In this document: in pieces, positions 4,659 through 51,495 of the stretch | How the letters are laid out: every line of letters starts with the position of its first letter | How positions within the stretch are numbered: position 1 is the first letter of the stretch | Assembly: GCF_002895485.1 (NCBI RefSeq) | Contig: NZ_AZRK01000002.1 | Location: 62,001 to 126,000 of the forward strand | Reading direction: 5' to 3' | Length of the DNA stretch: 64,000 bases | Source: Petrotoga sp. 9PWA.NaAc.5.4 | GTDB lineage: Bacteria; Thermotogota; Thermotogae; Petrotogales; Petrotogaceae | Notes under the pieces: model-generated | What the model saw: only the letters and a program-made list of their open reading frames with translations | Databases searched by the model: none | Told to the model about the DNA's origin: nothing | Made by a program: the position numbers and the translations under genes

Positions 4659-4729
4659 AAAACTTCCTCCTAAAAGCTATTCTTTTTTAATTATGATACC
4701 ATTTATTTTCTTAAATTATAATACAGCGC

Positions 4730-5090
4730 ATCCAACTTTTTGTAGAAGGGAAATGGCAGAGCCCTTCCCCTCTTTTTCGTTACATGTAGCGAAAAAGTTA
4801 AAGAAATCAAGAATTATATAGGATTTTAGAAATAAAGTGTTTTTAAAAATAAGTATTTGAATTTATGACGGGGTCAGGGCAGAGCCCTCTCCCCTCTTTA
4901 GCTACATGTAGCGAAGAAGTTAAAAAAATTCTTAGTTAGACAGGAACTTTAGAAATGATAATTTTCAGAAAATGAGCATTTGAATTTAAAATGGGTCCAG
5001 GGCAGAGCCCTTCCCCTCTCTTTCGTTATACGTAGCGAAAAAGTTAAAGAAATCAAGAATTATATAGGATTTTACAAACGAAGATAAAAA
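4730..5090 (+). repeat. Tandem array of three repeat-family modules, period 123 bp
   Basis: Three copies of the intergenic module. The core GGCAGAGCCC occurs at 4755, 4878 and 5001, an exact spacing of 123 bp. Each is followed by the C-rich arm and a second hairpin such as TTCGTTACATGTAGCGAA. Internal copies of TTTAGAAAT separate the modules. The 490-bp gap holds no gene. This array runs opposite to both flanking minus-strand genes, the only unambiguous exception to the orientation rule seen elsewhere. The outer ends are not sharp. Confidence 0.8.
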
Positions 5091-5148: not shown

Positions 5149-5865
5149 TTAAAATTTAAATCCCGCTTTTTCCATCGCATCCTCAACAGCTTCCATCCAC
5201 ATATTTGAGCTACTGGTTGCACCTGTGTATATATCAACAGGAAGACTACCTTTTTCTAATATTTTTTTTGCTATTTCTTCTTTTGCTTGATGGAAAGGTT
5301 CGTATGGATAGCTATCCTTTTCTTTAGGTTTTACCGTGTTATATATATCTTGATACTCATTTAAAACTACTTCCGTTATTTTTCCTTCTTTTACAATTAT
5401 TATTGCATTAGCTCTATCATTTCTTGAAGATATTTGAGAGTGACCAACGTAAATGCCATCTATTACTCCTTCAAAACCTTCAGCTCTCTTTAGCGCTCTT
5501 TCAACAGCTTGAATTGCCATTTCAGAAGAGTGAGTTGCACCTGTAAATACGTCTATTTCAGAACCATTTACTTCGACAAATCTCTTTGGCAACTCTTTCA
5601 TAGCTTCTTGCCATGGTTGCCATGGATAATTTTCGTCTTTAGGTAATCCTGTAGGAATATTGATTTCTTCAAGTATGACTTCAACAATTTTCCCTTTTTT
5701 TATCTTTACAACAGCTTTTGTGTAAGTTCTATCAGATGCATCAGAATATCCAATGTAAGTTCCGTCTTTCCAAGAATTGTTAGATTTTCCGAAAATTGCC
5801 GAAAAACTCGAAGACATAAACAAAGAAACAATTAACATTACAAAAAATATTCTTTTTACCTTCAT
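5149..5865 (-). CDS. Secreted protein with two FMN-binding (flavinylation) domains
   Basis: 238 residues. A signal peptide is evident (basic MKVKR, hydrophobic core to about residue 23), with no lipobox cysteine. Two copies of the FMN_bind domain follow, each beginning DGTYIGYS or DGIYVGHS and ending in the ApbE flavinylation motif: TGATHSS (108-114) and TGATSSS (214-220). In this family the last threonine or serine of the motif carries covalent FMN attached by ApbE, and such proteins carry electrons outside the membrane (as in RnfG, NqrC and fumarate-reductase partners). No ApbE, membrane quinone module or flavin reductase is beside it, so the electron donor and acceptor are unknown. It starts with ATG close to an element of the intergenic repeat family. 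Confidence 0.85.
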   Translation of the reverse strand: MKVKRIFFVMLIVSLFMSSSFSAIFGKSNNSWKDGTYIGYSDASDRTYTKAVVKIKKGKIVEVILEEINIPTGLPKDENYPWQPWQEAMKELPKRFVEVNGSEIDVFTGATHSSEMAIQAVERALKRAEGFEGVIDGIYVGHSQISSRNDRANAIIIVKEGKITEVVLNEYQDIYNTVKPKEKDSYPYEPFHQAKEEIAKKILEKGSLPVDIYTGATSSSNMWMEAVEDAMEKAGFKF

Positions 5866-5901
5866 CCTCTTTCATCCTCCTTTGATTTGAAAAACATGTT
5901 T

Positions 5902-6103
5902 GCTTTAGAAATTATAAAATCTGCCTTTTATATATTGTTTAGAGTTAAATTTTTATAAAAATAACTCCATAACTCTAATATTTACTAACTATGAATTTCT
6001 TTAACTTCTTCGGTATTTGTACCGAAGGGAAGAGGAGAGGACTTCGCCCTGAGCCCATTATAAATTCAAAATATTATTTTTCAAAACGCTCTATTTCTAA
6101 AGT
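5902..6103 (-). repeat. MITE-like intergenic element, full length (202 bp)
   Basis: Bounded by GCTTTAGAAAT (5902-5912) and ATTTCTAAAGT (6093-6103). It is in the reverse orientation relative to the plus strand. Its hairpin is TTCGGTA...TACCGAA, whereas other copies have TTCGCTA...TAGCGAA: a compensatory change. It lies in the divergent gap between the FMN-binding gene and the purine region. Confidence 0.8.
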
Positions 6104-6363
6104 GTCTATTTGAAAAAACAAATTTTTCAAATTACAAAAATCACAAATATTATAAAAACGAACTTCCAACTTTCATATTGGAAAGGATAAGAAGAAAAGG
6201 CTTTAAGTAGCAAAATAGTAGAAAAAGATCAGATCTTATAACTCAAAAAATTAAAAAAATGTGATAATTTCTCGTTTAAAATTATAACAAATAGTATTAC
6301 AATTGTCAATATTAATAAGTTAAACGAAAGTAAAGTCAGTAATTTGCTTTTTAAAATAATAAA

Positions 6364-6412
6364 AGGATATTTTTAAAATTATTAAATATACTTAATTAAA
6401 AAGAAATATCCT
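6364..6412. promoter_or_regulatory. Inverted repeats in the leader of the purine region
   Basis: In the otherwise featureless A+T-rich stretch 6104-6625 there is a 9-bp inverted repeat, AGGATATTT (6364-6372) and AAATATCCT (6404-6412). Separately, TCGTTTAA (6272-6279) pairs with TTAAACGA (6320-6327). The 9-mer TAAACGAAA (6321-6329) recurs inverted as TTTCGTTTA (6462-6470), inside the promoter spacer. These are candidate operator sites and no regulator is identified. I see no gene and no riboswitch I recognise in this gap. Confidence 0.35.
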
Positions 6413-6454
6413 AAATTAAAAGTAATTAATAACTTTTAAATCTTTAAAAATCAT

Positions 6455-6484
6455 TTTACAATTTCGTTTAGAAAGTAGTATAAT
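6455..6484 (+). promoter_or_regulatory. Sigma-70 type promoter for the PLP enzyme / purine region
   Basis: TTTACA (6455-6460), an 18-bp spacer, then a perfect TATAAT (6479-6484). The ATG at 6626 is about 140 bp downstream, leaving a long untranslated leader. The spacer contains TTTCGTTTA, an inverted copy of a motif further upstream, so a repressor could act here. Confidence 0.6.
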
Positions 6485-6625
6485 ATTCAGAAAACAAAGT
6501 TATTTAATTGGTAAAAAAATTTGAGGTATCTTAAATATTTTTAGCCACTTTGAAAATTAATAATTTTTAAAAAAGAAAGTTTGAATTTTTAATTGAGTAA
6601 TAATTTTTTTAATTGGAGGTTAATC

Positions 6626-8095
6626 ATGATTGATTTAACAGTAAATGAAGAGGTTTTAGTTAAGGTTTTAGAAAGGGCAAAAGAAAAGAACATAATTATT
6701 CCAACAATAGAACAGATGAGGAATCCTGAATTAATACCTCAAAAAATAAGAAATGAATTAAAAAATATAGGTTTGTGGGATATTAATTCATACAATCTGT
6801 TTAGAATAACCTGGAAAAATGAACCTAAAGAAAAAGGTGGATTATTTGGAAAGGTCAACTATATGGAATTGCCACCCGAACTTACAGGGGTTAAAGCTCG
6901 GATAGTAGCGCTAGTAGGAAAGTGGTTTCCAACGGGATCGCATAAGGTTGGTGCGACTTTTGGATGCTTGGTTCCAAAGTTAGTAACAGGACAATTTGAT
7001 CCTACTACACAAAAAGCTGTTTGGCCTTCTACAGGTAATTATTGTCGTGGAGGAGCTTATAACGCACAACTTTTAGGATGTGAATCTATAGCTATATTAC
7101 CAGAAGGTATGAGTAAAGAAAGGTTTGAATGGCTTTCTAAGGTTGCTGGAGAGGTTATAAGTACTCCTGGCAGCGAAAGTAATGTCAAAGAAATTTTCGA
7201 TAAGTGTAATGAGCTAAAAGCCAAATTTGGAGATAAAATTGTTGTTTTTAATCAGTTTGATGAAATGGGAAACAGATTATGGCATCATGAAGTAACAGGG
7301 TATGCGATGCGAGAAGTGTTAACAGAATTAATGGGTGAAAACGATAAGTTAAGTGGCGCAGTTTTTACTTCTGGCTCTTCTGGGACTATGGGATCTGGTG
7401 AGTATTTAAAAGAGATCTTTCCAAATAGTAAGTTAGCTGTTGGTGAAGCTTTACAATGTCCTACTCTATTGTATAACGGATATGGGGCCCACAGGATCGA
7501 AGGCATCGGGGATAAACATGTCCCGTGGATTCACAACGTGAAAAATACTGATATGGTAATAGATATCGATGATAATGATGCTATTAATTTAATAAGACTT
7601 TTTAACGAACCTGCTGGTAAAAAATTTTTGAAAAAACAAGGTGTTAATTCCGAATTGGTTGAAAATCTTTCTTGTTTAGGGATTTCTTCTATAGCGAATA
7701 CCCTTGGTGCTATCAAATTTTCTAAATATTACGAATTAACTGAGAACGATATCGTTATGACTGTGTTCACAGATTCAATGGAGTTATATGGTTCAAGACT
7801 TCAAGAATTAAGAAATCAGTATGGAGAGTACAGTGAAAAGCAAGCAGCTATAGATTACTTTGAGCATCTTATAGGTATAAAAACTGATTATATGCAGGAA
7901 CTTAACTATAACGATAGAAAAAGGATTCACAATTTGAAATATTATACATGGATTGAACAACAAGGCAAAGATTTGAGTGAATTGAATGAACAATGGTACA
8001 ACAGCGAAGAATATTGGGGACATTTATCAGAAATTGTCGAGAAAATAGATGCGTTAATAATGAACTTTAACGAAAGGACAGGCTTACTGAAGTAA
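6626..8095 (+). CDS. PLP-dependent fold-type-II enzyme (cysteine synthase/TrpB-like), substrate unknown
   Basis: 489 residues. The start is the ATG at 6626, which has GGAGG 6 bp upstream; an in-frame start 33 bp earlier has no such site. The protein is a fold-type-II (beta family) PLP enzyme: Schiff-base lysine in TGSHKVGA (Lys107), substrate-loop-like STGNYCRGGAYNAQ (about 135-148) and a glycine-rich phosphate loop, SGSSGTMGSG. It is longer than cysteine synthase and has a C-terminal extension. It stands alone upstream of the purine operon, separated from it by a repeat array. By context it could deaminate a small amino acid released by purine breakdown, the job of 2,3-diaminopropionate ammonia-lyase YgeX in related clusters, but its sequence does not look like YgeX. 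This role is inference. Confidence 0.75.
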   Translation: MIDLTVNEEVLVKVLERAKEKNIIIPTIEQMRNPELIPQKIRNELKNIGLWDINSYNLFRITWKNEPKEKGGLFGKVNYMELPPELTGVKARIVALVGKWFPTGSHKVGATFGCLVPKLVTGQFDPTTQKAVWPSTGNYCRGGAYNAQLLGCESIAILPEGMSKERFEWLSKVAGEVISTPGSESNVKEIFDKCNELKAKFGDKIVVFNQFDEMGNRLWHHEVTGYAMREVLTELMGENDKLSGAVFTSGSSGTMGSGEYLKEIFPNSKLAVGEALQCPTLLYNGYGAHRIEGIGDKHVPWIHNVKNTDMVIDIDDNDAINLIRLFNEPAGKKFLKKQGVNSELVENLSCLGISSIANTLGAIKFSKYYELTENDIVMTVFTDSMELYGSRLQELRNQYGEYSEKQAAIDYFEHLIGIKTDYMQELNYNDRKRIHNLKYYTWIEQQGKDLSELNEQWYNSEEYWGHLSEIVEKIDALIMNFNERTGLLK

Positions 8096-8109
8096 CTTTA
8101 ATATTAAGA

Positions 8110-8580
8110 ATTTTAGAAATGGAAAATTTTCTAAAAACGAAGTTTTGAATTTTAAATGAGTTCTGGGCGGAGCCCTCTCCCCCTTCTTCGCTACAAGTAG
8201 CGAAAAAGTTAAAGAAATTAAGAATTAGTGAGAATTATGTAGAGACTTTAGAAAATATAATTTTTCAGAAAATAAGCATTTGAATTTATAGCGGGTCCAG
8301 GGCGGAGCCCTTTCCCCCTTCTTCGCTACAAGTAGCGAAAAAGTTAAAGAAATAAAGAATTAGTGGGAATTATGTAGAGACTTTAGAAAATATAATTTTT
8401 CAGAAAATAAGCATTTGAATTTATAGCGGGTCCAGGGCGGAGCCCTTTCCCCCTTCTTCGCTATAAGAAGCGAAAAAGTTAAAGAAATTAAGAATAGGTC
8501 AAAATTAAAATAGTGGAGGTATTTTTGAAAAACATAAATTTAAAAAAATTTATAAAATATAAGTTTCATAATTTCTAAGG
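8110..8580 (+). repeat. MITE-like element with three tandem modules, period 135 bp
   Basis: Left end ATTTTAGAAAT (8110-8120) and right end ATTTCTAAGG (8571-8580). The core GGGCGGAGCCC occurs at 8165, 8300 and 8435, exactly 135 bp apart. Copies one and two carry a perfect hairpin, TTCGCTACAAGTAGCGAA, and copy three a variant. The whole gap between the PLP gene and the threonine-synthase-like gene is this array. Its right end overlaps the AAGGAGG ribosome binding site of the next gene. Confidence 0.85.
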
Positions 8581-8591
8581 AGGACCTTATT

Positions 8592-9839
8592 TTGAAATAC
8601 GTTAAAAATTTAGTATGCATCAATTGTGGAGAAAAATATGAAGCTCTTCCCACACAATATCTTTGTCCTCTTTGTGGTGAAAAGGGGATATTAGATGTAG
8701 AGTATGATTATGAAAAGATAAAAAGAGACTGGAACAAAGAAATTTTGAAATCAAACAAAGATTTTTCAATTTGGAGATATACTCCGTTATTACCGGTAGA
8801 ATCAGATACCCCTAAACCCCTTTTGAGAATCGGATGGACTCCTTTATATACAGTTAAAACTCTTGCAAAAGATTTAGGGATTGAGACTTTATATATCAAA
8901 GATGATGGTTTAAATCCTACTGGTTCTTTAAAAGATCGTGCATCAGCTGTTGCAGTTGTTAAAGCACAGGAGGCAGGAAAGAAAGTTGTATCATGTGCAT
9001 CGACAGGGAATGCAGCGTCTTCGCTAGCTGGTAATATTGCTTCTATGGGAAATGACATGAGAGCGGTAATTTTTGTTCCTGAACGTGCTCCTATAGGTAA
9101 AGTTACTCAACTTTTAATTTTTGGTGCGGTTGTAATTTCTGTGAAGAGTACGTATGAAGAAACTTTTTATTTATCTGAAGAAGCTATAAAAAAGTGGGGA
9201 TGGTACAACAGGAATGCAGCCATAAATCCATATTTAGTTGAAGGTAAAAAGACTTCTTCAATAGAATTTGCTGAACAGTTGAATTGGGATATGCCGGATT
9301 GGTTGGTTTATTCAGTTGGGGATGGCTGTACTATAGCTGGGGCATGGAAAGGTTTGTATGATTTAAAACAAATAGGGTTTATAGATAAAATGCCAAAGTT
9401 ATTAGGAGTGCAGGCACAAGGATGCGCACCAATAACACAGGCGTTTAGAAGCGGAAATGATTTGATAGTTGTTCCGGAAAATACCATTGCAGATAGTATA
9501 GCAGTTGGAAAGCCACGAAATTATATAAAAGCAATTAAAGCTGTAAAAGAATCCAAGGGGGATATGATTAACGTTAGTGATGATGAAATATTAAATATGA
9601 TGAAAGTTTTGGGTAAAAGAGTGGGGATTTTCGGCGAGCCTGCAGGTGTTGCCGGGCTTGCCGGAATTAAAAAAGCAGTGGAATTAGGAATAATTAAGCA
9701 TTATGAAAGTATTGCGGCTGTTATTACTGGAAATGGTTTAAAGGATATAAAAAACGCTGAAAAAGCTGTGGGTAGACCTTTAATTGTAAATCCTGATTTT
9801 AAAGAGTTATCAGAATTACTTGAAAGTTATGATCTATGA
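8592..9839 (+). CDS. Threonine-synthase-like PLP enzyme
   Basis: 415 residues, TTG start behind AAGGAGGACC. The N-terminus is a zinc ribbon with CxxC pairs at Cys9/Cys12 and Cys25/Cys28. The fold-type-II PLP core follows, with Schiff-base lysine in NPTGSLKDRAS (Lys114) and GNAASSLAGN. This is the architecture of one class of threonine synthases (O-phosphohomoserine to threonine). It heads the long purine catabolism operon and no homoserine pathway genes are present, so it may act on another amino acid, for example diaminopropionate or a related product. A gene of threonine synthesis cannot be excluded. First gene of a run that continues with gaps of a few tens of bases at most to 28836. Confidence 0.75.
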   Translation: MKYVKNLVCINCGEKYEALPTQYLCPLCGEKGILDVEYDYEKIKRDWNKEILKSNKDFSIWRYTPLLPVESDTPKPLLRIGWTPLYTVKTLAKDLGIETLYIKDDGLNPTGSLKDRASAVAVVKAQEAGKKVVSCASTGNAASSLAGNIASMGNDMRAVIFVPERAPIGKVTQLLIFGAVVISVKSTYEETFYLSEEAIKKWGWYNRNAAINPYLVEGKKTSSIEFAEQLNWDMPDWLVYSVGDGCTIAGAWKGLYDLKQIGFIDKMPKLLGVQAQGCAPITQAFRSGNDLIVVPENTIADSIAVGKPRNYIKAIKAVKESKGDMINVSDDEILNMMKVLGKRVGIFGEPAGVAGLAGIKKAVELGIIKHYESIAAVITGNGLKDIKNAEKAVGRPLIVNPDFKELSELLESYDL

Positions 9840-9881: not shown

Positions 9882-11084
9882 ATGGACTACAAAAAAATTT
9901 TGTCAAAATCTGAAGAATATAAAAAAGATATGTCAAAGTTCCTAAGGGATATGATTGCAATTCCAAGTGAAAGTGGTCAAGAAAAAGAAGTTATCTTAAG
10001 AATAAAAGAAGAAATGGAGAAAGTCGGTTTCGACAGAATAGACATAGACCCGATGGGAAATATATTGGGGTATATTGGTACAGGGAAACATTTGATTGCG
10101 ATGGATGCACACGTCGATACTGTAGGTATTGGCGATATTAATTTGTGGAATTACGATCCATATAAGGGTTACGAAGATGATGAAATTATTGTTGGTAGAG
10201 GTGCGAGTGACCAAGAAGGTGGAATGGCATCGATGGTGTATGCAGCGAAAATTATTAAAGAACTTGATTTAAGTGATGATTATACTCTTTTAATTACAGG
10301 TACTGTTCAAGAAGAAGATTGTGATGGACTTTGTTGGCAATACATTATAGAAAAAGACCATATCAAACCTGAATTTGTAGTCATTACGGAACCTACCTCT
10401 TGTAATGTGTATAGAGGTCAAAGAGGTAGAATGGAAATAAAAGTGACGACACACGGTATTAGTTGTCACGGCTCTGCTCCAGAAAGAGGAGATAATGCTA
10501 TATATAAAATGGCAGATATCGTAAATGAATTGAAGGTACTACACACATGTTTAAAAGAAGACAATTTTTTGGGGAAAGGGAGCTTAACTGTTTCTGAGAT
10601 ATTTTCTTCATCGCCTTCTCGATGTGCTGTTGCAGATGGTTGTTCAATTTCGATTGATAGAAGACTTACTTGGGGAGAAACATGGGAACATGCGTTAGAA
10701 GAAATCAAAAATTTGCCTTCATCGAAAAAATACAGAGTAGATGTTGAATTGTACGGTTACGATAAGCCTTCTTATACGGGCCTGGTTTATCCGAGTCAAG
10801 CATACTTTCCATCTTGGGTTTTGGAAAAAAGTCATCCTGCATGTAAAACTTTAGTGGATGTTTATGAAGATCTATTTGACAAGGAACCATTTGTGGACAA
10901 ATGGACGTTTTCTACCAATGGAGTCTCGATTATGGGAAGATATGGTATACCTTGTGTTGGATTTGGGCCTGGACATGAAGATCAAGCTCATGCTCCAAAC
11001 GAAAAAACATGGAAAAGTGAATTGGTTAAAGCTGCTGCTATGTATGCTGCTATACCTAAAACTTATGTTCAAAAGTATGTCTGA
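9882..11084 (+). CDS. ygeY: YgeY-family M20 metallohydrolase
   Basis: 400 residues, ATG behind AAGGAGG. M20 zinc-hydrolase residues are clear: [10 protein letters not shown] (His77, Asp79), [12 protein letters not shown] (Asp110), TVQEEDCDG (Glu144/Glu145) and a late histidine in DQAHAPNE. The overall pattern fits the YgeY family, which clusters with selenium-dependent molybdenum hydroxylases and belongs to the anaerobic urate/purine gene set (ygeX, ygeY, ygeW, ssnA, hyuA). It probably hydrolyses an N-carbamoyl or ureido intermediate after ring opening. The hydantoinase gene begins about 20 bp downstream. No selenium genes (selD, yqeB, yqeC) are in the window. Confidence 0.88.
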
Positions 11085-11104
11085 AAATTAAGGGGATGAA
11101 TCTT

Positions 11105-12472
11105 TTGTTGATAAAAAACGGAATGGTCGTAACCTCTGAGAAAAGTGAAAAAAAAGATATTAGAATAAAAGATGAAAAAATTGTTGAGATTAATTATAAT
11201 TTAAAGCCGCTGGAGAATGAAGAAGTTATAGACGCGGAAGGTAAATTAGTTTTGCCTGGCGTTATAGATAGTCACACACATTTTAGTTTACATTCCAGAG
11301 GAACGGTAACTGTTGATGATTTTTATTGGGGTGGGCGATCTGCGGCTTTTGGAGGAGTTACTACACATATTGATTTTGCGGATATAGAAAATGGTTCTTT
11401 AATATACGGTTTGAACAAAAGATTCAAAGAAACATATGACGCTGTAATAGATTTTCATTTTCACATGGTAATTAACGACGAATTTGATCCTATTAAAGAT
11501 GATTATCAATTAAAAGAACTTCGAAATTATGGGATTTCGAGTTTGAAAGCTTTTACAACTTACAAAGATATATATATGTTATCTCAGGAAAAATGGGAAC
11601 CTTTGTTTAAAAAAGCAAGAGAAAATGATTTGATTGTAGCTGTTCATGCAGAAGATGATGAAATTATTCAAAGAAATATTTCGAAATATGCTTTTGAGAA
11701 TAAGCTTGATGTTTGTTATCACCCTGATATCAGATCTGATCAGGCAGAGGAAAAAGCTGTTAGAAATATGTGTAAGTTAGCAAAAAAAGTTGGAGGTTCT
11801 CTTTACATAGTACACCTTTCTTCTAAAAAAGGTTATGAAGTTATAAAAGAATTTAAAAATTTTGAGGCCAATGATACTTTTAATTTATATGTTGAAACTT
11901 GTCCTCATTATCTTTTATTAACAAGAGAGGTATTAGAAGGAGAAAGGGCAAGATTATTTCTTATGACTCCACCTTTGCGTGAAAAGGAAGATAATCAGGC
12001 TCTGTGGAATGGAATAAAAGATGGAGTTATAGATGTAATAGCTACAGATCATTGTGCTTATAGTAAGGAACAAAAATTTCAAGGCAAAAATTCTTTGGAT
12101 ATTTTTCCGGGTATTGCAGGTGTAGAAACGCTTTTACCTCTCGTGTATACGTATGGAGTTAAAAGAGGTATAGTAAATGTTAACAAATTGGTAGATCTTC
12201 TTTCAACTAATCCCGCAAAAATTTATAAACTTTTTCCACGAAAAGGAACTATATCAGAAGGTTCTGATGCAGATTTAGTCATTTTTGATCCTCATATTAA
12301 AGTTGTTCTGACAGATAAAATAACTCACTCAAAATGTGGATACACACCATTTAATGGGTTTGAAGTTGAAGGGATGCCAATAATGACAATATTAAGAGGT
12401 AAAGTTATCGTTAAAAACGGAGAGTTTAAAGGTGAAAAAGGCTTTGGAAAGTTCATCAAAACTAATTATTAA
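11105..12472 (+). CDS. hydA: Dihydropyrimidinase / hydantoinase-type amidohydrolase
   Basis: 455 residues. I place the start at TTG 11105 because AGGGG (11091-11095) abuts the ATG at 11096 with no spacing but stands 9 bp before this TTG; the ATG remains possible and adds three residues. Cyclic amidohydrolase signatures: SHTHF metal ligands, the carbamylated-lysine position in SSLKAFTTYK, VHAEDD, YIVHLSS and IATDHCAY. The family opens cyclic ureides such as dihydropyrimidines or hydantoins to N-carbamoyl amino acids. Within this operon it matches HyuA/HydA of anaerobic purine pathways, acting on a ring-opened purine intermediate, with YgeY and YgeW following in the route. Confidence 0.9.
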   Translation: MLIKNGMVVTSEKSEKKDIRIKDEKIVEINYNLKPLENEEVIDAEGKLVLPGVIDSHTHFSLHSRGTVTVDDFYWGGRSAAFGGVTTHIDFADIENGSLIYGLNKRFKETYDAVIDFHFHMVINDEFDPIKDDYQLKELRNYGISSLKAFTTYKDIYMLSQEKWEPLFKKARENDLIVAVHAEDDEIIQRNISKYAFENKLDVCYHPDIRSDQAEEKAVRNMCKLAKKVGGSLYIVHLSSKKGYEVIKEFKNFEANDTFNLYVETCPHYLLLTREVLEGERARLFLMTPPLREKEDNQALWNGIKDGVIDVIATDHCAYSKEQKFQGKNSLDIFPGIAGVETLLPLVYTYGVKRGIVNVNKLVDLLSTNPAKIYKLFPRKGTISEGSDADLVIFDPHIKVVLTDKITHSKCGYTPFNGFEVEGMPIMTILRGKVIVKNGEFKGEKGFGKFIKTNY

Positions 12473-12492: not shown

Positions 12493-13503
12493 ATGAACAC
12501 ACTTTTTAGGGGAAAGGATTTTATAACCACACAAGAATGGACTAAAGAAGAATTAGAAACAGTTTTTGATTTATCAAAAGAACTTAAGCTGAGATTTGCT
12601 TTAGGAGAGCCAACAGATCATTTGTTGAGAGCAAAAACCGTTTTTATGATGTTTTTTGAACAATCTACAAGGACTCGAAATTCTATTGAGGCTGGTATAA
12701 CCCAACTTGGCGGTCACGCACATGATTTAACTCCAGACAAAATGCAATTATCTCATGGTGAGTCTGCCAAAGATACAGCCATTGTTTTAAGTAGATTTGG
12801 TCATGCGATTGCTATCAGAAACTGTTTTTTTGGAATTGGTAATAAATATTTAAGAGAAGTGGCAAAATATGCTGACGTACCTGTTCTTAATTTGCAAGAC
12901 GATATTTATCATCCTATGCAAGGGTTGGCAGATTTAATGACAATAAAAGAAAAATGTGGTAATGATTTAAAACATCTCAAGGTCACTATTTCATGGGCTT
13001 ATGCCACGTCTCATGCTAAACCTTTATCAGTACCACAGACTCAAGCGTTATTATTTACAAGGTATGGTATGGATGTTACAATAGCCCATCCAAAAGAATT
13101 TCCTTTAATGCCAGAAATTTTAAGACAAGCCGAAGAAAACGCAAAAATGTATGGTGGAAGTTTAAAAATAACCGACAATATGGATGAAGCTTTTGAAGGT
13201 GCACAAATTGTTATCCCAAAAAATTGGGGAGGATTTTTAGGAGTTGAAGATCCCGATTCAGAAGAAGGGAAAAGATTGATGAAAGAAAATCTTGAAAAAC
13301 ATAAAGATTGGATATGTGATGAAAGAAGGATGTCCTTAGCAGACAAGGATGTGTTGTATATGCATGCTATGCCTGCAGATAGGGGAAAAGAAGTGACAGA
13401 TGTGGTTATAGATGGTCCACATTCGATAATTTATGATGAAGCTGAAAATCGATTACATACAGCGAAAGCAATAATGGCTTTAACTATGGGCGGCAGACCG
13501 TAA
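12493..13503 (+). CDS. ygeW: YgeW-type knotted carbamoyltransferase
   Basis: 336 residues, ATG behind GGAGGTC. The aspartate/ornithine carbamoyltransferase fold is shown by the carbamoyl-phosphate motif EQSTRTRNS (STRTR at 58-62) and HPMQGLADL in the middle. The binding regions after them (SWAYATSHAKPLS, AHPKEFPLMPE) differ from those of OTC and ATC and suit YgeW, whose substrate is still debated. In purine clusters it is thought to phosphorolyse a carbamoyl product to carbamoyl phosphate, which a carbamate kinase turns into ATP. No carbamate kinase gene is in the window. It is followed by the first molybdenum hydroxylase. Confidence 0.9.
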   Translation: MNTLFRGKDFITTQEWTKEELETVFDLSKELKLRFALGEPTDHLLRAKTVFMMFFEQSTRTRNSIEAGITQLGGHAHDLTPDKMQLSHGESAKDTAIVLSRFGHAIAIRNCFFGIGNKYLREVAKYADVPVLNLQDDIYHPMQGLADLMTIKEKCGNDLKHLKVTISWAYATSHAKPLSVPQTQALLFTRYGMDVTIAHPKEFPLMPEILRQAEENAKMYGGSLKITDNMDEAFEGAQIVIPKNWGGFLGVEDPDSEEGKRLMKENLEKHKDWICDERRMSLADKDVLYMHAMPADRGKEVTDVVIDGPHSIIYDEAENRLHTAKAIMALTMGGRP

Positions 13504-13518
13504 AGGAGGTGTGTAAAA

Positions 13519-15807
13519 ATTTTTGAGAATGTTAATAAACCACGACCACGAATCGATGCATATGAAAAAGTTACTGGAAAAGCAAAATTTGCGGACGATT
13601 TAGACTTTCCAAATATGTTGTATGCGAAAGTTTTAAGAAGTAAGTACCCTTCAGCTAAGATAGTTAAGATAAATCTTGAAGAGGCTGAAAAAGTAGCTGG
13701 AGTAAAAGCTATTATTACATCAAAAGATATTCCAAACAATGAGTTTGGAGTAATCGTTCCTGATCAACAGGTTTTAGCAAAAGAAAGAACTTATTATATA
13801 GGTGACGGGATAGCAGTTGTAGCAGCGGAATCATGGGAAGCTGCGCAAAAAGCAATAGAAAAGATTTACGTTGAATACGAAGAAATTTCAGGGATTTTTG
13901 ATCCTATAGAAGCAAGAGAATCATCTCCAATACATCCTGAAAAGAATAATAACGAAGTTATACATCATAAATTGAGAAAAGGTGATATAGAAGAAGGGTT
14001 TAAAAATTCTGATGTAGTAATAGAAAGAGAATATCAAACCCAATTTGTTGAGCATTCTTATTTGGAGCCAGAAGTAGTTATAGCCGTACCTTATGAAAAT
14101 AATACTATGGTTACTATATATGGTTCTATCCAAAATCCATTTGCCTGTAGAAATGCTGTCGCGAGTGTGTTAAAGGTTGGTTTAAACCAAGTTAGAATAA
14201 TTCAAAATCATATTGGTGGTTCTTTTGGTGGAAAAGATGAAATTATATCTTCCATGGCCTGTAGAGCTGCCGTTTTAGCTTTGAAGACAAATCGCCCCGT
14301 GAAATTAAAAAATTCAAGGGAAGAGTCTATTATAGAAAGTTATAAAAGACATCCCTATAGAATGAAGTACAAAGTTGGTGCAACAAAAGATGGAAAATTA
14401 ATGGCTATGGAAATAGAAGCGATCGCAGATAGTGGCGCTTATGCGTGTCAAACACCTTTTGTTACATGGAGATCTGTTGTGCAAGCTACTGGGCCGTACG
14501 AAGTTCCAAATGTTAAAACTGATACCTATGGGTTTTACACAAACAACGTCTATACAGGAGCTATGAGAGGATACGGTTCACCTCAAGTAATATTTGCTCA
14601 AGAATCTCTAATGGATGAACTTGCGGAAATTTTGGGTATGAGCCCTATAGAATTAAGATTAAAAAATATCTTTCACAACAATTCTGTTACAGCAAGCGGT
14701 CAGGTTCTTGACAATCATTATGTAAGCCTCGAAGAAGTTATAGAAAAAGCGGTAAAAGAGATAAATTTTTTAGAGAAATATAAGGAATATTCCAAACCTC
14801 AAAAGGGAGATAAAAGAAGAGGTATAGGAATGGCTATAAGCTATAGGGGATGCAGTTTAGGTGCTGAAGCAGTGGATGCAGCTGGTATAGTATTGAACAT
14901 CCAAAAAGATGGAACTGTTGTTTTGTATAGTGGTTTAGCGGAAAATGGACAGGGTTTGAAAACCGTATTTTCTCAAATTGTTGCCGAAGAGTTAGGAATA
15001 GATATAAATAGAATAAATTTTATGGTTGTAGATACTTTGATTTCTCCAGACAGTGGTTCAACGGTAGCTTCCAGATCGACATTGGTAGGAGGCAATGCAT
15101 GTTCTGAAGCAGCAAAGAATCTCAAAAAACGTTTGTCAGATTTTTTGATAAGAAAGTATAATCTTCCCTATTCAGAAATGAAATTTAAAAACGATAAAGT
15201 TTATTCTCCCAACAACGAAGAATTTAAATCTTTTCAAAAAGTTGTTTTAGAAGCAGTTAATGATGGTGTGCCTTTGTATTCTTATGGATGGTATAAGTCT
15301 CCAGAGATTACTTGGGATGAAGAAACAGGTCAAGGAAAACCTTATTTTACCTATGTGTACGGATGTCAAATTGCAGAAGTGGAAGTTGATATAAATACAG
15401 GAGAAATAAAAGTTCTTAGAATGGTAGCAGCACATGATGTTGGAAGGGCAATAAATCCAGCTACAGTTTTAGGTCAAATTTATGGTGGGGTAGTAATGGG
15501 AATTGGATACGGTATTATGGAAGAAGTGATTACTGAAGATGGTTATATTGAGAGTACTAATTTTGATGAGTATTTGATACCAACTTCTAAAGATATGCCA
15601 GAAATTATTCCTATAATCGTGGAAAATCCTGATCCTAATGGACCTTATGGGGCAAAGTCTGTAGGAGAACCAACCTTAGAACTTGGAGCCGCTGCTATTG
15701 CAAATGCTGTTGCTCAAGCAACCGGCAAAAGGATTCGGTCGTTACCTTTAAATTTGGAAAAGGTCTTAATAGGGCATTCTTTGAAAAAAGGAAGGAAGAA
15801 AAAATGA
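13519..15807 (+). CDS. xdhA: Molybdenum hydroxylase (xanthine dehydrogenase type), Mo-cofactor subunit; probable ATT start
   Basis: 762 residues from the proposed start. The conserved N-terminus PRPRIDAYEKVTGKAKFADD lies upstream of the first in-frame ATG (13615). In that frame the only plausible initiator is ATT at 13519, 8 bp after GGAGGT. Domains: N-terminal ald_xan_dh_C domain, then two MoCo-binding halves including GSFGGKDE, AMRGYGSPQ, YSGLAENGQG and GPYGAKSVGEPTLELGAAA (the carboxy-terminal motif with the catalytic glutamate). The enzyme hydroxylates N-heterocycles, here likely hypoxanthine/xanthine or 8-oxidation of purines. The FAD-subunit gene overlaps its end by 4 bp and the 2Fe-2S gene follows. 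A frameshift near the start is the alternative to ATT. Confidence 0.88.
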   Translation: MFENVNKPRPRIDAYEKVTGKAKFADDLDFPNMLYAKVLRSKYPSAKIVKINLEEAEKVAGVKAIITSKDIPNNEFGVIVPDQQVLAKERTYYIGDGIAVVAAESWEAAQKAIEKIYVEYEEISGIFDPIEARESSPIHPEKNNNEVIHHKLRKGDIEEGFKNSDVVIEREYQTQFVEHSYLEPEVVIAVPYENNTMVTIYGSIQNPFACRNAVASVLKVGLNQVRIIQNHIGGSFGGKDEIISSMACRAAVLALKTNRPVKLKNSREESIIESYKRHPYRMKYKVGATKDGKLMAMEIEAIADSGAYACQTPFVTWRSVVQATGPYEVPNVKTDTYGFYTNNVYTGAMRGYGSPQVIFAQESLMDELAEILGMSPIELRLKNIFHNNSVTASGQVLDNHYVSLEEVIEKAVKEINFLEKYKEYSKPQKGDKRRGIGMAISYRGCSLGAEAVDAAGIVLNIQKDGTVVLYSGLAENGQGLKTVFSQIVAEELGIDINRINFMVVDTLISPDSGSTVASRSTLVGGNACSEAAKNLKKRLSDFLIRKYNLPYSEMKFKNDKVYSPNNEEFKSFQKVVLEAVNDGVPLYSYGWYKSPEITWDEETGQGKPYFTYVYGCQIAEVEVDINTGEIKVLRMVAAHDVGRAINPATVLGQIYGGVVMGIGYGIMEEVITEDGYIESTNFDEYLIPTSKDMPEIIPIIVENPDPNGPYGAKSVGEPTLELGAAAIANAVAQATGKRIRSLPLNLEKVLIGHSLKKGRKKK

Positions 15808-16670
15808 TTGAATTTGAATTTTTATCTGCAAAGAATATAGAAGAAGCTATAAATTATATGCATAATTATAAGCTTTCAAAACTTTTAGCGGGTGGAACAG
15901 ATTTATTGGTAGATATTCACAAGGAAAGTCCAAGATTAGGGGAATTTTCATATGTTATCGATATATCAAATATCGAAGAACTTCGTTTTATAAAAGAGTA
16001 TGAAGATATTGTAGAAATAGGTCCTTTAACTACTCATACAATGTTAATTGAATCTCCTATAATAAACAAATACTTTCCATTACTTGCAATCGCTGCTAAA
16101 ACCATCGGTTCTCCTCAAATTAGAAATAGAGGCACAATAGGGGGCAACATATCCAATGCTTCTCCTGCAGCAGACCTTGTTCCACCTTTGATGGTTCTCA
16201 ATGCTGAGTTGGAATTGAAATCAATGGATGATAAGAGATTTGTTCCTATAGAAGAATTTATTGTTGGTCCTTACAAAACAAGTAAAAAAGATGATGAATT
16301 GATAACTTCTATAAGAATACCAAAGCTCGATGAAAGTTATAAAGGCAATTTTCAAAAGATTGGAAGAAGACAAGCATTGAATATAGCAAGGTTAAATTTA
16401 GCTCTAATAGCAAAAATTGACGAAGCAAACAAAAAAATAGAAGATATAAGAATAGTGCCTGGATCAGCCACTCCATATCCATTAAGATTTAAAAATTTAG
16501 AAAGAGAAATTGAAGGTAAAACATGGAATCAATTAGACTTAGATTATTTATCTCAAAAGATAGGAGAAGAGATGATTTCAATTACAGGAGAAAGATGGTC
16601 AACACCTTACAAAAAGCCTGCTTTAGGTGGAATATTAAAAAAAGCAATGAATGAATTGTTGAATTTTTAA
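15804..16670 (+). CDS. xdhB: Molybdenum hydroxylase, FAD-binding subunit (first enzyme)
   Basis: 288 residues, the standard size for a separate FAD subunit of the xanthine dehydrogenase/CO dehydrogenase family. FAD-binding motifs: LLAGGTDLLVDI near residues 31-42 and the isoalloxazine region GSPQIRNRGTIGGNISNASP (about 101-120). The C-terminal CODH_FAD domain ends in LGGILKKAMNELL. It carries electrons from the 2Fe-2S clusters to an external acceptor. The ATG overlaps the end of the Mo subunit (ATGA), a sign of translational coupling. Confidence 0.93.
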   Translation: MIEFEFLSAKNIEEAINYMHNYKLSKLLAGGTDLLVDIHKESPRLGEFSYVIDISNIEELRFIKEYEDIVEIGPLTTHTMLIESPIINKYFPLLAIAAKTIGSPQIRNRGTIGGNISNASPAADLVPPLMVLNAELELKSMDDKRFVPIEEFIVGPYKTSKKDDELITSIRIPKLDESYKGNFQKIGRRQALNIARLNLALIAKIDEANKKIEDIRIVPGSATPYPLRFKNLEREIEGKTWNQLDLDYLSQKIGEEMISITGERWSTPYKKPALGGILKKAMNELLNF

Positions 16671-16683
16671 GGAGGACCTTTCT

Positions 16684-17157
16684 ATGAAAAATATAGTTGT
16701 CACATTATTTGTTAACGGTAAAAAAGAAGTTTTAGAAGTTACTTCAAAAGAAAGGCTTTTAGATACATTAAGAGATCAATTGAATTTGAAAAGTGTGAAA
16801 GAAGGTTGTGATGTAGGAGAATGTGGAGCTTGTACAGTTATTTTGAACGGACAAGCAGTGAATTCTTGTTTGGTTTTAACGGCTCAAATTGATGGGTATG
16901 AGGTTTATACTACTGAAAGTTTGGAAAATAAAGGTAATTTACATCCCCTTCAGCAAGCTTTTATAGACTACCATGCGATACAATGCGGTTTTTGTACCAC
17001 AGGAATGTTAATGTCAGCTAAAGCTCTCTTAGACAAAAATTCTAATCCCTCTCGAGAGGATATAAAAACAGCTATAGAAGGAAATCTTTGTAGATGTACA
17101 GGATACGAGCAAATAATTCAAGCGATAGAGAGTGTATCGAAGAAAGTGAAAGGGTGA
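16684..17157 (+). CDS. xdhC: Molybdenum hydroxylase, 2Fe-2S subunit (first enzyme)
   Basis: 157 residues, ATG behind AAGGAGGACC. It has a plant-type ferredoxin domain with the cysteines of EGCDVGECGACT plus a later NSC. The alpha-helical second domain binds the proximal cluster through QCGFCTTGM and LCRCTGYEQI. Together with the two preceding genes this completes the L-M-S set of a molybdenum hydroxylase. The gene order Mo subunit, FAD, FeS differs from that of the second set further on. Confidence 0.94.
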   Translation: MKNIVVTLFVNGKKEVLEVTSKERLLDTLRDQLNLKSVKEGCDVGECGACTVILNGQAVNSCLVLTAQIDGYEVYTTESLENKGNLHPLQQAFIDYHAIQCGFCTTGMLMSAKALLDKNSNPSREDIKTAIEGNLCRCTGYEQIIQAIESVSKKVKG

Positions 17158-17163: not shown

Positions 17164-18531
17164 TTGTCAAATATTTTGATAAAAAATATAGATACTATTG
17201 TTACTATGGATAAAAACAGTAGTATATTAAAAGGGTACAGCATTTTAATTGTAGATGATAAGATAGAAAAAATAGATGAAAATATAGATGTAAGTAATAA
17301 GAATATAGATGAGATTATAGATGGAAGTAGTTACATATGTTATCCTGGTTTAATAAATACTCATCATCATTTTTATCAAACGTTAACAAGAAATATTCCG
17401 CAAGTGCAAAATGTAGAACTATTCGATTGGTTAAAATTTTTATATCCTATATGGTCAAAATTAACTCCCGAAGCTGTGTATTACAGCACTTTAGTAGCGA
17501 CGGGAGAACTATTGAAAACTGGATGTACTACCACCGTTGACCATTATTACGTCTTTCCAAAGAATCAGCCTCCAAATTTGCTTGATAATGAATTTTATGC
17601 TGCTAAAGAAATAGGAATAAGATTACATGGTTGTCGAGGTAGTATGTCTTTAAGCGAAAAAGATGGCGGATTGCCACCAGACTCAGTTGTTCAAAGTGAA
17701 AAAGAAATACTTGCTGATTCTCAAAGAGTTATAGAAAAGTTTCATGATTCTTCTCCTTTTTCAATGAGTCGAGTAATTTTAGCTCCCTGTTCTCCATTTT
17801 CTGTTACTTCAGAACTTTTAAAAGAATCAATAAAATTAGCAAGACAATGCAATGTCTGTAGCCATACTCATCTTGCCGAAACTAAAGATGAAGAAGAATT
17901 TTGCCTTGAAAAATTTGGGATGAGACCGCTCGAATATATGGAAAGTTTAGAATGGATAGGAAACGATGTTTGGTATGCACATGGTGTTCATTTTACTCAT
18001 GAAGAAATAGAAAGATTGGCAAGAACCAAGACAGGGATTGCACATTGTCCTGTATCAAATCAGAAGTTAGCTTCGGGTGGTGCCAACGTTCCATATATGC
18101 TTGAAAAGGGTGTAAAGGTCAGCCTTGCAGTTGACGGAAGTGCGAGTAACGATTCGTCTAATATGATATTGGAAATGAAAGCTGCGTTTTTAATGAGTCG
18201 CTTGATATATGGAATAAAAGCTATGACAGCTAAGGATGTTTTTTCTATAGCAACTCGAGGTGGAAGTGAAGTTCTGAACCAACCAGAAGTAGGGAGCTTA
18301 GAAGAAGGGAAAGCAGCCGATATGTTTTTAATAGATTTTGAGAAATTAGGCTACGCAGGTGGATTATATGATCCTGTTTCTTTAATTATAAACACAGGGG
18401 ATACACAGATTGTTGATATGACAATAGTTAATGGAGAGATTGTTGTAAGAGAAGGACAGTTAGTTAAAGTTGATGAAAAAAAGATAATAGAAAATGCCAA
18501 TAGAATTTCTAAAGCTATGTTCGAATTGTAG
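17164..18531 (+). CDS. Amidohydrolase, probable 8-oxoguanine deaminase
   Basis: 455 residues, TTG start behind AGGGTGAT. Cytosine-deaminase/TRZ-ATZ-type amidohydrolase: NTHHHFYQTLTRN (metal ligands and a helix typical of the 8-oxoguanine/guanine branch), HTHLAET, HGVHFTHEE and VDGSASNDSSN, in which the aspartate is the catalytic metal ligand. The DGSASND signature and LAPCSPFSVT are those I associate with 8-oxoguanine deaminase, which turns 8-oxoguanine into urate plus ammonia. That fits a urate-directed purine operon. Guanine deaminase is the main alternative. Confidence 0.8.
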   Translation: MSNILIKNIDTIVTMDKNSSILKGYSILIVDDKIEKIDENIDVSNKNIDEIIDGSSYICYPGLINTHHHFYQTLTRNIPQVQNVELFDWLKFLYPIWSKLTPEAVYYSTLVATGELLKTGCTTTVDHYYVFPKNQPPNLLDNEFYAAKEIGIRLHGCRGSMSLSEKDGGLPPDSVVQSEKEILADSQRVIEKFHDSSPFSMSRVILAPCSPFSVTSELLKESIKLARQCNVCSHTHLAETKDEEEFCLEKFGMRPLEYMESLEWIGNDVWYAHGVHFTHEEIERLARTKTGIAHCPVSNQKLASGGANVPYMLEKGVKVSLAVDGSASNDSSNMILEMKAAFLMSRLIYGIKAMTAKDVFSIATRGGSEVLNQPEVGSLEEGKAADMFLIDFEKLGYAGGLYDPVSLIINTGDTQIVDMTIVNGEIVVREGQLVKVDEKKIIENANRISKAMFEL

Positions 18532-18553: not shown

Positions 18554-19885
18554 ATGCTCATAATAGGGAATGCTAAAATTTTAAGTTTTGATGAAGACAT
18601 GAATATCTTTAATGAAGCGGCAGTTGTTATAGAAGGTAAAACAATAAAAGAAATAGGAAAAACTGAAAAAATGAGAGAAAAATATCCGCAAGCTTCTTTT
18701 AAAGATGCGAAAAATAAAGTTGTAATGCCAGGATTAATAAATACGCATACACATTTATATAGTACTTTTGCTAGAGGAATGGATTTGAAAACTAATCAAC
18801 CTCCAAGAAATTTTTTAGAAATCTTGGAAAAGTTATGGTGGAGACTCGATGAAACTTTAAATGAAGAAGATATCTACTATAGTGCTATATATGCTCTAAT
18901 TGAATGTATAAAGAATGGAGTTACAACGATTTTTGATCACCATGCAAGTTTTAACTTCATAGAAGGAAGTTTGGATATAATAACTGATGCTGTTATTGAA
19001 AGCGGCATAAGAGCTAATTTATCTTTTGAAGTTTCTGACAGACATGGTAGAAAAAAAGGTGAAGCAGCTTTAAAAGAAAATGAAAGGTTTATAGAAAAAT
19101 TAAAAAATTCCAATTTAGAAAAAATAAAAGGGTTAATTGGACTCCATGCGTCTTTTACGCTCGAAGACGAAACCTTAAAAAAAGCTGCTGATTTAGCAGA
19201 TCACCTAAATGTTCCTTTACATGTACATGTAGCAGAAGGAATAGAAGATTGGCAGGATAGTGTGCAAAGAGGATACATAGGTGTAATTGATAGATTAAAG
19301 AAGTTTAATATTTTGAGACCTCATACGTTGGCAGTTCATGGAGTACACATACAAAGTGAAGAAATTCCTTTATTAAAAGAGAGTGAAGCATATTTGATAC
19401 ACAATCCTGAATCAAATATGAATAACGCTGTGGGAACAGCACCATTAAAACAATTGTTTGAATCTGGTATATTAGTTGGTTTAGGAACAGATGGATATAC
19501 TCATGACATGTTTGAAAGTTTAAAAGTGGCTAATTTGCTACAAAAACACGAATTGAAGGATCCTCAAGCTGGAGGAAATGAAGTCTACAGAATGGTTTTT
19601 GTAAATAATAAAAAAATTGCCTCAGAACTTTTGGGTATAAATGTTGGAATGTTGAAAGAAGGATTTCCAGCGGACTTAATAATTGTAGATTATTTTCCTC
19701 CTACACCTATAGAAAAGGACAACATTTACTCACATATTCTTTTTGGTATGAATGGGGGAATGGTTTCGACGGTCATGGTCGATGGGAAGATTCTTATGGA
19801 TAACAAGGAGGTGACAATTTTAGACTATGAAAGAATTAAACGCAGAACCATACAACAAGCAAGAAATTTCTGGGAAAGATTCTGA
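18554..19885 (+). CDS. ssnA: SsnA-type aminohydrolase
   Basis: 443 residues, ATG behind AGGGGG. Amidohydrolase motifs: NTHTHLYSTFARGM, DHHASF, VHVAEG, VHGVHI and LGTDGYTHDMF. The NFLEILEKLWWRLDETL helix and PESNMNNAVG are typical of SsnA, a putative aminohydrolase found with selenium-linked molybdenum hydroxylases in anaerobic purine clusters. Substrate unproven; a ring-opened or oxidised purine is likely. The last 59 bp encode, in another frame, the start of the next gene, whose perfect ribosome binding site AAGGAGGTGA lies inside this coding region. Confidence 0.9.
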   Translation: MLIIGNAKILSFDEDMNIFNEAAVVIEGKTIKEIGKTEKMREKYPQASFKDAKNKVVMPGLINTHTHLYSTFARGMDLKTNQPPRNFLEILEKLWWRLDETLNEEDIYYSAIYALIECIKNGVTTIFDHHASFNFIEGSLDIITDAVIESGIRANLSFEVSDRHGRKKGEAALKENERFIEKLKNSNLEKIKGLIGLHASFTLEDETLKKAADLADHLNVPLHVHVAEGIEDWQDSVQRGYIGVIDRLKKFNILRPHTLAVHGVHIQSEEIPLLKESEAYLIHNPESNMNNAVGTAPLKQLFESGILVGLGTDGYTHDMFESLKVANLLQKHELKDPQAGGNEVYRMVFVNNKKIASELLGINVGMLKEGFPADLIIVDYFPPTPIEKDNIYSHILFGMNGGMVSTVMVDGKILMDNKEVTILDYERIKRRTIQQARNFWERF

Positions 19886-20750: not shown

Positions 20751-21241
20751 AGATAAAATTCACAATAAATGGAGAAGAAAGAACGTGCGACGTTAATTCG
20801 ACTACCCGACTTTTAGATGTGATTAGAGACGATTTAAAGTTAACAGGAACAAAAGAAGGTTGCGGAAAAGGAGAATGCGGGGCTTGTACAGTTATAATGA
20901 ACGATAAATTAGTAACTTCTTGCTTAGTTTTAGCATATCAAGCAGAAGGAGCCGACATAATTACAATTGAAGGGTTAGTAAAAGATGATGAAATGCACCC
21001 TGTGCAGGTAGCTTTTATAGAAACAGGAGCAGTACAATGTGGGTTCTGCACGCCTGGTTTTATTTTAGCAACTAAAAAACTTTTGGATGAAAATCCAAAT
21101 CCTACAGAAGAAGAAATAAAAAGGGGCTTATCTGGAAATATATGTAGGTGTACTGGTTATAAAAAAATTATCGATGCGGTCAAATTAGCTTCAAGGAAGT
21201 TTCTTGAAACGAAAAGAGGTGAAGAAGTTGAAGCCGAATAA
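20747..21241 (+). CDS. Molybdenum hydroxylase, 2Fe-2S subunit (second, NDH-type enzyme)
   Basis: 164 residues, TTG start overlapping the FAD-subunit stop. Cysteine motifs of both 2Fe-2S domains are intact: EGCGKGECGACT with a later SC, and QCGFCTPGF with ICRCTGYKKI. The C-terminus is acidic (RGEEVEAE). It corresponds to NdhS. The following Mo-subunit gene starts before this one ends. Confidence 0.93.
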   Translation: MKIKFTINGEERTCDVNSTTRLLDVIRDDLKLTGTKEGCGKGECGACTVIMNDKLVTSCLVLAYQAEGADIITIEGLVKDDEMHPVQVAFIETGAVQCGFCTPGFILATKKLLDENPNPTEEEIKRGLSGNICRCTGYKKIIDAVKLASRKFLETKRGEEVEAE

Positions 21242-26863: not shown

Positions 26864-26889
26864 CTAATTCAAAAGGGGGTTTTAAGTTT

Positions 26890-28221: not shown

Positions 28222-28245
28222 AATTTTAAGTGGAAGGGAATTTTT

Positions 28246-33290: not shown

Positions 33291-33356
33291 AAATAATATA
33301 AATTTGAGTTCTGCATAAAAGTTTTGCATTTTTAATTTCTAAAGATATTATAAAAT

Positions 33357-48879: not shown

Positions 48880-48909
48880 ATAACCAGGAAGAATTTCTTC
48901 CTGGTTATT
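48880..48909 (-). terminator. Terminator of the ornithine operon
   Basis: Long perfect hairpin AATAACCAGGAAGAA / TTCTTCCTGGTTATT around the oraE stop, with the stop codon inside the stem. On the minus strand the stem is followed by TTTTTGGTTATT. It closes the ord-ortA-ortB-oraS-oraE unit. Confidence 0.75.
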
Positions 48910-51464: not shown

Positions 51465-51495
51465 AAAAACCTCCTTAATTCTAATTTTTTTACTC

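Follow-up and report, generated by a model that had tools for sequence, protein, structure and literature searches.

Our analysis concerns a 64,000-nucleotide stretch of the genome of Petrotoga sp. 9PWA.NaAc.5.4 (bases 62001-126000 of contig C2; hereafter the window) and, within it, a run of 19 genes at 6626-28836 that all lie on one strand in the open reading frame (ORF) listing. The genes at its head encode two pyridoxal phosphate (PLP) enzymes, P0001 (6626-8095, plus strand) and P0002 (8592-9839, plus strand), and by gene content the run is an operon of the reductive uric acid (purine) pathway. The DnaN and endonuclease V of the genome have the PDB entries 1vpk and 2w35, Thermotoga maritima proteins, as clearly their best matches, in keeping with a place in Thermotogota. 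YgeX, the last enzyme of that pathway, was not found in the searched genome (2.22 Mb in 45 contigs), and we propose that these PLP enzymes probably take its place.

In the reductive pathway, as laid out in the pathway description of PMC12507026, uric acid is converted by way of yanthine, ureidomethyl-hydantoin and diureidopropionate to 2,3-diaminopropionate (DAP). YgeX then cleaves DAP, yielding pyruvate and ammonia, and in E. coli it does so alone. Section 9 of that paper names Bacillota, Pseudomonadota, Chloroflexota, Actinomycetota, Spirochaetota and Elusimicrobiota.

Gene content of the operon

Downstream of P0002, and on the same plus strand, lie genes for a YgeY hydrolase (9882-11084; TIGR03526, 701.2 bits against a cut-off of 321.5), a HyuA/D-hydantoinase-family amidohydrolase (11096-12472; TIGR02033, 430.5 bits, cut-off 393.25) and, at the place of YgeW, a carbamoyltransferase of 336 residues (12493-13503). 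The last of these is short and stands nearer to ornithine carbamoyltransferase (about 239 bits against cut-offs of 281-306) than to YgeW (222.2 against 453). There follow a first xanthine dehydrogenase (Xdh)-type set of molybdenum (Mo), FAD and Fe-S subunits (13615-17157), the Mo subunit of which falls below all curated cut-offs, an 8-oxoguanine deaminase-type amidohydrolase (17164-18531; NF006055, 593.3 bits, cut-off 532), SsnA (18554-19885; TIGR03314, 559.2 bits, cut-off 455.5), a second Xdh-type set (19827-23502) with its Mo subunit in two overlapping ORFs (21204-22517 and 22492-23502), and a reductase with a dihydroorotate-dehydrogenase fold and a 4Fe-4S domain (24050-25135; PF01180 and Fer4 models). 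The operon ends with ORFs at 25151-28836 that we take to be adenine deaminase-like, purine permease-like and MocA-like genes; the FAD and Fe-S labels in both Xdh-type sets are likewise presumptive.

YgeY, HyuA and SsnA of the operon thus exceed their curated cut-offs, and the reductase expected of a reductive uric acid cluster (YgfK or UacX) is present as the dihydroorotate-dehydrogenase-type protein with Fer4, for which we use the name UacX from PMC12507026. The E. coli and C. difficile cluster, as described by Li et al. (2025; PMC12507026), has YgeY, HyuA, SsnA, a UacX-type protein and Xdh in common with the window operon, which has at the place of YgeW a carbamoyltransferase under the YgeW cut-off and differs in lacking YgeX and in possessing P0001 and P0002.

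P0001 has the core and catalytic pattern of cysteine synthases

The P0001 ORF runs from an ATG at 6626 to a stop at 8095 and encodes 489 residues, with GGAGG immediately upstream; an alternative TTG start at 6593 would give 500 residues. The protein belongs to the PALP family (PF00291, 51.9 bits, cut-off 35), and all of its NCBIfam matches lie below cut-off, the best being cysK (102.3 against 351) and cysKM (96.5 against 344); the genome has a separate CysK. The AlphaFold2 model (predicted local distance difference test score, pLDDT, 81) has yeast CBS (6c4p) as its top Foldseek match, and the best 50 fold matches share 18-26% identity with it.

The CysK pattern is kept in all 88 aligned rows (K107, S135-T136-G137-N138, Q210 and G250 to T254), and we take these to be the PLP lysine, the S/T-G-N loop, the glutamine and the G-x-x-G-T loop. 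While the core fold and this pattern are those of CysK and CBS, P0001 differs from them in its extra N- and C-terminal parts, in the motif HKVGA at the PLP lysine where CysK and CBS have KDR, and in three further conserved residues, D296 (88/88 rows), K297 (87/88) and H298 (88/88).

P0002 forms a clade apart from threonine synthase

P0002 starts at a TTG at 8592 preceded by AAGGAGG and extends to 9839 (415 residues), with a ribbon of four cysteines (C9, C12, C25 and C28). It matches PF00291 and exceeds the cut-off of the threonine synthase model TIGR00260 (215.6 bits against 167.1), and it falls just under that of PRK08197 (299.9 against 303). Its AlphaFold2 model (pLDDT 87.5) finds Aquifex ThrC (2zsj, 38% identity) as best Foldseek match. 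P0002 therefore resembles ThrC in fold and overall sequence, but it differs from ThrC in tree position, in the residues described below and in gene context.

In a tree of 80 rows, from which two of 79 rows had been left out by a length limit, the P0002 clade (57 rows) is split from ThrC with support 97/97. P0002 of the window branches with Halanaerobiales (100/99) and not with the remaining 13 rows from its phylum. The zinc-ribbon ThrC-like proteins L206-L210 were set apart from ThrC, since they branch separately in the tree.

Residues that are invariant in 14 ThrC rows were compared, in the numbering of the genome's own ThrC, with 63 P0002-type rows (16 from the phylum, 44 external, one of which, L177, the tree places beyond the P0002 clade, and three haloarchaeal). 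R161 is an arginine in none of the 63, with L, T, M or Q in its stead; T89 is alanine in all 63; N190 and T241 are each aspartate in 62; and R244 is A or S in 60. E80 and E344 of the P0002 alignment were dropped as telling positions, because the haloarchaeal P0002 relatives keep the ThrC-like glutamate. We take T89 and R161 to be the residues that hold the substrate phosphate in Thermus ThrC, and a substrate with two amino groups would fit both the loss of phosphate-binding residues and the two aspartates acquired.

No YgeX match in the genome or in 103 genomes of its phylum

A profile search of the genome with TIGR01747 gave nothing above cut-off. Its sole weak match (18.8 bits) falls in TrpB, which rules it out as a hidden YgeX, and neither P0001 nor P0002 was matched. 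Neither protein passes TIGR01747, TIGR03528 or NF006058: P0001 reaches 17.9 bits on NF006058 (diaminopropionate ammonia-lyase) against a cut-off of 276, and no YgeX-type model appears among the 25 of 43 families listed for P0002. Of 103 genomes searched across the phylum, none gave a YgeX match at E<=1e-60, and the E. coli control was recovered. The genome holds six PALP-family proteins, four of which, CysK, ThrC, TrpB and OrtB, pass the cut-offs of their own families, so that P0001 and P0002 are left over. The ordinary ThrC (331.9 bits against 167.1) lies on contig C8 beside a homoserine dehydrogenase gene, and P0002 was for this reason rejected as the ThrC of the genome.

These results agree with an earlier note on this DNA, made from the sequence alone, which had held the pair to be unlike YgeX and had described a 489-residue cysteine-synthase-like protein and a threonine-synthase-like protein with a zinc ribbon; models, folds and the four cysteines bear out both descriptions. 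The note had also named two findings that would count against its proposal, a true YgeX elsewhere and P0002 as the only threonine synthase of the genome. Given the second ThrC and the lack of a YgeX match over cut-off, neither appeared.

Co-occurrence and gene order within the phylum

Across the 103 genomes (P0001 at E<1e-40, P0002 at E<1e-80, SsnA at E<=1e-100), P0001 and P0002 occur together in 61, P0001 alone in four, P0002 alone in three and neither in 35. For P0001 and an SsnA match the corresponding numbers are 53 for both, 12 for P0001 only, one for SsnA only and 37 for neither. Fisher values for such co-occurrence counts take no account of how closely the genomes are related.

Gene neighbourhoods were read from loci chosen among the matches rather than drawn at random. 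P0002 has a purine-pathway gene on the same strand within two ORFs in 26 of 30 such loci, in one of them by way of a MocA-like gene only, and a UacX-type gene directly adjoins it in 14 of the 30; P0001 has a purine-pathway gene on the same strand within two ORFs in 16 of 21. The order YgeY-YgeW-HyuA-SsnA-UacX-P0002 recurs in eight fetched genomes (L078-L085), which makes P0002 part of the operon itself. For five of these genomes the P0001 locus was fetched as well (L044, L047, L050, L051 and L054), and there P0001 is found elsewhere, together with genes for an Xdh Mo subunit and adenine deaminase. One related genus is represented by six genomes, in every one of which P0001 lies next to P0002, overlapping or 0-1 nucleotides apart, and their pairing is thus not due to chance; YgeY comes next in five of the six, and the contig of the sixth ends there.

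As a separate observation, genome G094 of the same phylum (L097, 7523-9938) has a gene for a 306-residue CysK-like protein next to a P0002-like gene (40%), a similar pairing with no purine genes nearby.

Haloarchaeal plasmids carry P0002 relatives

At E<=1e-60, 20 plasmid records match P0002, and 19 of these are haloarchaeal. We inspected four loci, from Haloarcula hispanica, H. marismortui, Haloterrigena turkmenica and Natrinema halophilum. In each, a P0002 relative of 47-48% identity, annotated thrC, lies beside two amidohydrolases, an LLM-class reductase, a D-aminoacylase and a Zn-dependent hydrolase, the last being a carbamoylase-family protein where tested. The best models of the H. hispanica and H. 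turkmenica amidohydrolases are SsnA and allantoinase/hydantoinase, all below cut-off, and longer stretches of these two species also contain two Xdh sets, yqeB, yqeC and selD. A Rid-family gene stands at the far end in H. hispanica, some 24 kb away from the P0002 relative. Going by their annotation, the D-aminoacylase and the LLM-class reductase are similar to variants mentioned in PMC12507026, UacY and the F420 type.

Apart from the P0002 relative, the incomplete plasmid gene tables list no fold-type-II PLP gene in the four stretches, and a BLAST comparison of the ORFs of two stretches with YgeX, P0001, CysK, OrtB and ThrC baits matched only this relative. No P0001 orthologue was found among the plasmid records of these species, the chromosomes of which were not searched for YgeX or P0001; haloarchaeal matches to P0001 amounted to three partial ones, of 27-28%, in other genera. 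P0002 is for these reasons the better candidate for a stand-in for YgeX.

In H. marismortui the relative sits between a nucleobase symporter gene and an amidohydrolase gene. Table 1 of Haft and Self (2008; PMC2276186) lists ygeZ (pNG7258) and ssnA (pNG7259) for this species and leaves ygeX blank, an entry that the P0002 relative would fill. This locus, which that paper treats as one of a selenium-dependent molybdenum hydroxylase, shares a P0002 relative with the window operon, but it has no P0001 orthologue on the plasmid, and the haloarchaeal loci differ further by their LLM-class reductase, D-aminoacylase and carbamoylase.

Relatives in other bacteria and Asgard archaea

P0001 has at least 580 relatives, and the best 80 (61-72% identity) come from Halanaerobiales, Bipolaricaulota, Synergistota, Chloroflexota, Asgard archaea, Clostridia and others. 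Counted by tblastn over these 80 loci, in seven of which the ORF caller had missed the P0001 ORF, a P0002-like gene is present in 46, always on the same strand and within 1,500 nucleotides in 41, and a uricolytic-type gene is present in 47. Among 50 whole genomes drawn from the 80 loci, 38 contain P0002 (E<=1e-75).

In 249 Anaerolineae genomes, the class of an Anaerolineaceae locus (P0001 at 1e-80; P0002 at 1e-75, near which limit some matches may be other ThrC-like proteins), both genes occur in 141, P0001 only in 19, P0002 only in 34 and neither in 55, giving totals of 160 for P0001 and 175 for P0002, beside five for YgeX. In a clostridial sample, the class of an Anaerotignum locus, only four of 245 genomes contain P0001, one of them being the genome at its centre.

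At L117 the genes form a compact run: DctP and DctM, which are TRAP transporter genes with a small gene between them, and then YgeY, YgeW, P0002 and P0001. YgeY and YgeW exceed their cut-offs there, and the run places the pair beside enzymes that remove ureido groups. Chloroflexota loci often have the pair adjoining a carbamoyltransferase and carbamate kinase, and no Xdh was seen at L117. The Halanaerobiales locus L114 is close to the window (P0001 72%, P0002 69%, carbamoyltransferase 82%). Because these three proteins are nearer to L114 than to most of their own phylum, the operon at 6626-28836 looks as if it had been exchanged between this lineage and Halanaerobiales.

Other features of the window

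Between P0001 and P0002 lie three head-to-tail copies of a 135-nucleotide intergenic repeat (8112-8516, no strand assigned). The repeat, in lengths of 67-135 nucleotides, is dispersed between genes at 4701-5081, 8112-8516, 28856-29094, 33340-33446 and elsewhere, and an Rfam scan of 5800-8700 gave no match up to E 0.1.

N-terminal residues of the Mo subunit of the first Xdh-type set can be read in frame at 13507-13614, ahead of its first ATG, where the protein seems to begin, but the ORF listing holds no ATG, GTG or TTG start ahead of 13615. The same ORF of 730 residues is seen in four related genomes (L038, L040-L042). The split of the second Mo subunit corresponds to MoCoBD_1 and MoCoBD_2 and recurs at L094 (6642-7922 and 7919-8920), in the only related genome examined for it.

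On the minus strand, 48905-54454 holds a probable ornithine fermentation operon with OrtB (820 bits, cut-off 550) and presumptive genes for OraE, OraS and Ord.

Discussion

We favour, as the probable explanation, that this is a reductive uric acid operon in which YgeX has been replaced by non-orthologous PLP enzymes, with P0002 as the ThrC-derived lyase and P0001 as its CysK-derived partner. The gene content and order, the lack of YgeX matches, the co-occurrence of the genes, the family relations and the residue changes together argue for this proposal. P0001 and P0002 belong, like YgeX/DpaL (TIGR03528, TIGR01747), to the PALP family and would hold the same place in the pathway, while the pair reaches no YgeX-type cut-off. 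The scoring of YgeX by PF00291, as described in PMC12507026, would also take in P0001 and P0002. A search of the literature by title or abstract brought up no paper on the pair or on a replacement of YgeX.

The substrate, the products and the division of work between the two enzymes are inferred. P0002, with its origin in the threonine synthase family and its loss of ThrC-invariant residues, most likely removes the beta-amino group of DAP by alpha,beta-elimination, which would give aminoacrylate and then pyruvate and two ammonia. P0001, which comes from the cysteine synthase/CBS family and keeps its catalytic pattern, may catalyse a beta-elimination of the same kind, with the other DAP isomer or a ureido precursor as its substrate; its role is less certain than that of P0002. 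RidA-type proteins deal with aminoacrylate, and RidA-type genes are found in H. hispanica, in Bosea and at L047, where one lies with a threonyl-tRNA synthetase gene just ahead of the adenine deaminase-Xdh-P0001 run; their presence would fit an aminoacrylate product, as a hint only.

Several observations weigh against a simple replacement. YgeX is present in the same locus in two of the 80 P0001 loci (L192 and L193) and in five of the 50 P0001-bearing genomes, of which 44 were taken in list order (two with YgeX) and six were added by choice (three with YgeX, L192 being already known as positive). Since some genomes hold both, the pair is no strict swap for YgeX. At 25 of the 80 loci the flank, often cut short by a contig end, shows no P0002 and no match to a uricolytic gene or an Xdh Mo subunit. 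Within the phylum, 12 of 103 genomes have P0002 without an SsnA match, and just seven of the 54 matches to SsnA exceed the curated cut-off; the haloarchaeal SsnA-like (260 against 455.5) and HyuA-like (244 against 393) proteins are also under theirs. Five zinc-ribbon ThrC-like paralogues likewise lack R161, T89, N190 and R244, but they have neither aspartate, which makes the aspartates the more telling change in P0002. In three Asgard genomes (L122, L141 and L153) P0001 occurs with no P0002 match at E<=1e-75, and at some clostridial loci it lies away from purine genes; it may therefore have a further role. Distant relatives of P0001 (38-39%) lie on Rhizobium and Bosea plasmids (L221 and L222) near TauE/SafE genes, with RidA in Bosea. 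The same two regions, with their TauE/SafE sulfite exporters, also carry M20 hydrolases and amino-acid or TRAP transporters, surroundings that hint at beta-elimination of a sulfur-bearing amino acid.

The proposal of the earlier note that the pair replaces YgeX is thus upheld in that YgeX is missing, neither gene is the ordinary ThrC, CysK or TrpB of the genome, and relatives lie near pathway genes, but not as a strict exchange. Its tentative assignment of this role to both enzymes fits P0002 better, on the strength of the haloarchaeal clusters, and is refined for P0001 to that of a frequent, not universal, partner. The suggestion that the end product is a different compound finds no support: the genes for YgeY, HyuA, the YgeW-like protein, SsnA and the UacX-type reductase are all kept, and DAP is thus still the expected intermediate.

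A bolder possibility, which we regard as doubtful, is a two-enzyme end module with chemistry undescribed for this pathway, in which each enzyme would take one DAP isomer, or one would take albizziin, or a beta-replacement would lead to serine or cysteine; such a module would have an origin separate from that of YgeX, would have passed between bacteria and archaea and would be concealed by labels like 'threonine synthase'. The beta-replacement idea, that the pair makes for example serine or cysteine from DAP so that the pathway ends in a usable amino acid, is improbable when taken by itself. Threonine synthases add water, and cysteine synthases sulfide, to PLP-bound intermediates, and the operon has two genes where E. 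coli has one; no feature of a bound nucleophile is seen in the sequences, however, and the E. coli pathway, in the account of PMC12507026, ends in pyruvate with YgeX alone. It is also unlikely that the roles are reversed, with P0001 as the DAP lyase and P0002 given to another task such as assimilation of the product. The unbroken CysK pattern of P0001, its first place in the window operon and its position directly upstream of YgeY at L095 would fit such a reversal, but it is P0002 that has a relative in the haloarchaeal clusters and that stands in the pathway run of the eight fetched phylum genomes.

Two further explanations look past DAP. A role of P0001, and perhaps of P0002, in supplying cofactor to the molybdenum enzymes, such as the donation of sulfur or selenium, would account for an Xdh Mo subunit within two ORFs of P0001 in 10 of the 21 fetched phylum loci; we consider this very improbable given the Chloroflexota loci, with their carbamoyltransferase and carbamate kinase neighbours, and the run without Xdh at L117. 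That the genes are mere hitch-hikers, P0002 as a second ordinary threonine synthase and P0001 as a cysteine synthase, is hardly credible: P0002 does exceed the TIGR00260 cut-off, yet the genome has a true ThrC and a true CysK, P0002 lies in a well-separated clade without the ThrC-invariant residues, and clustering of the pair with purine genes recurs across phyla.

The replacement of YgeX that we propose makes this operon a variant of a known pathway and no new kind of system. It points to an enzyme that may complete reductive purine breakdown in groups without a YgeX match (its own phylum and most of the sampled Anaerolineae) and on haloarchaeal plasmids, and it gives a candidate for the blank in the Haloarcula marismortui column of the 2008 table. 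Some 'threonine synthase' labels may conceal a catabolic enzyme, and, if DAP activity holds true, the choice of enzymes for uric-acid-lowering probiotics would be wider.

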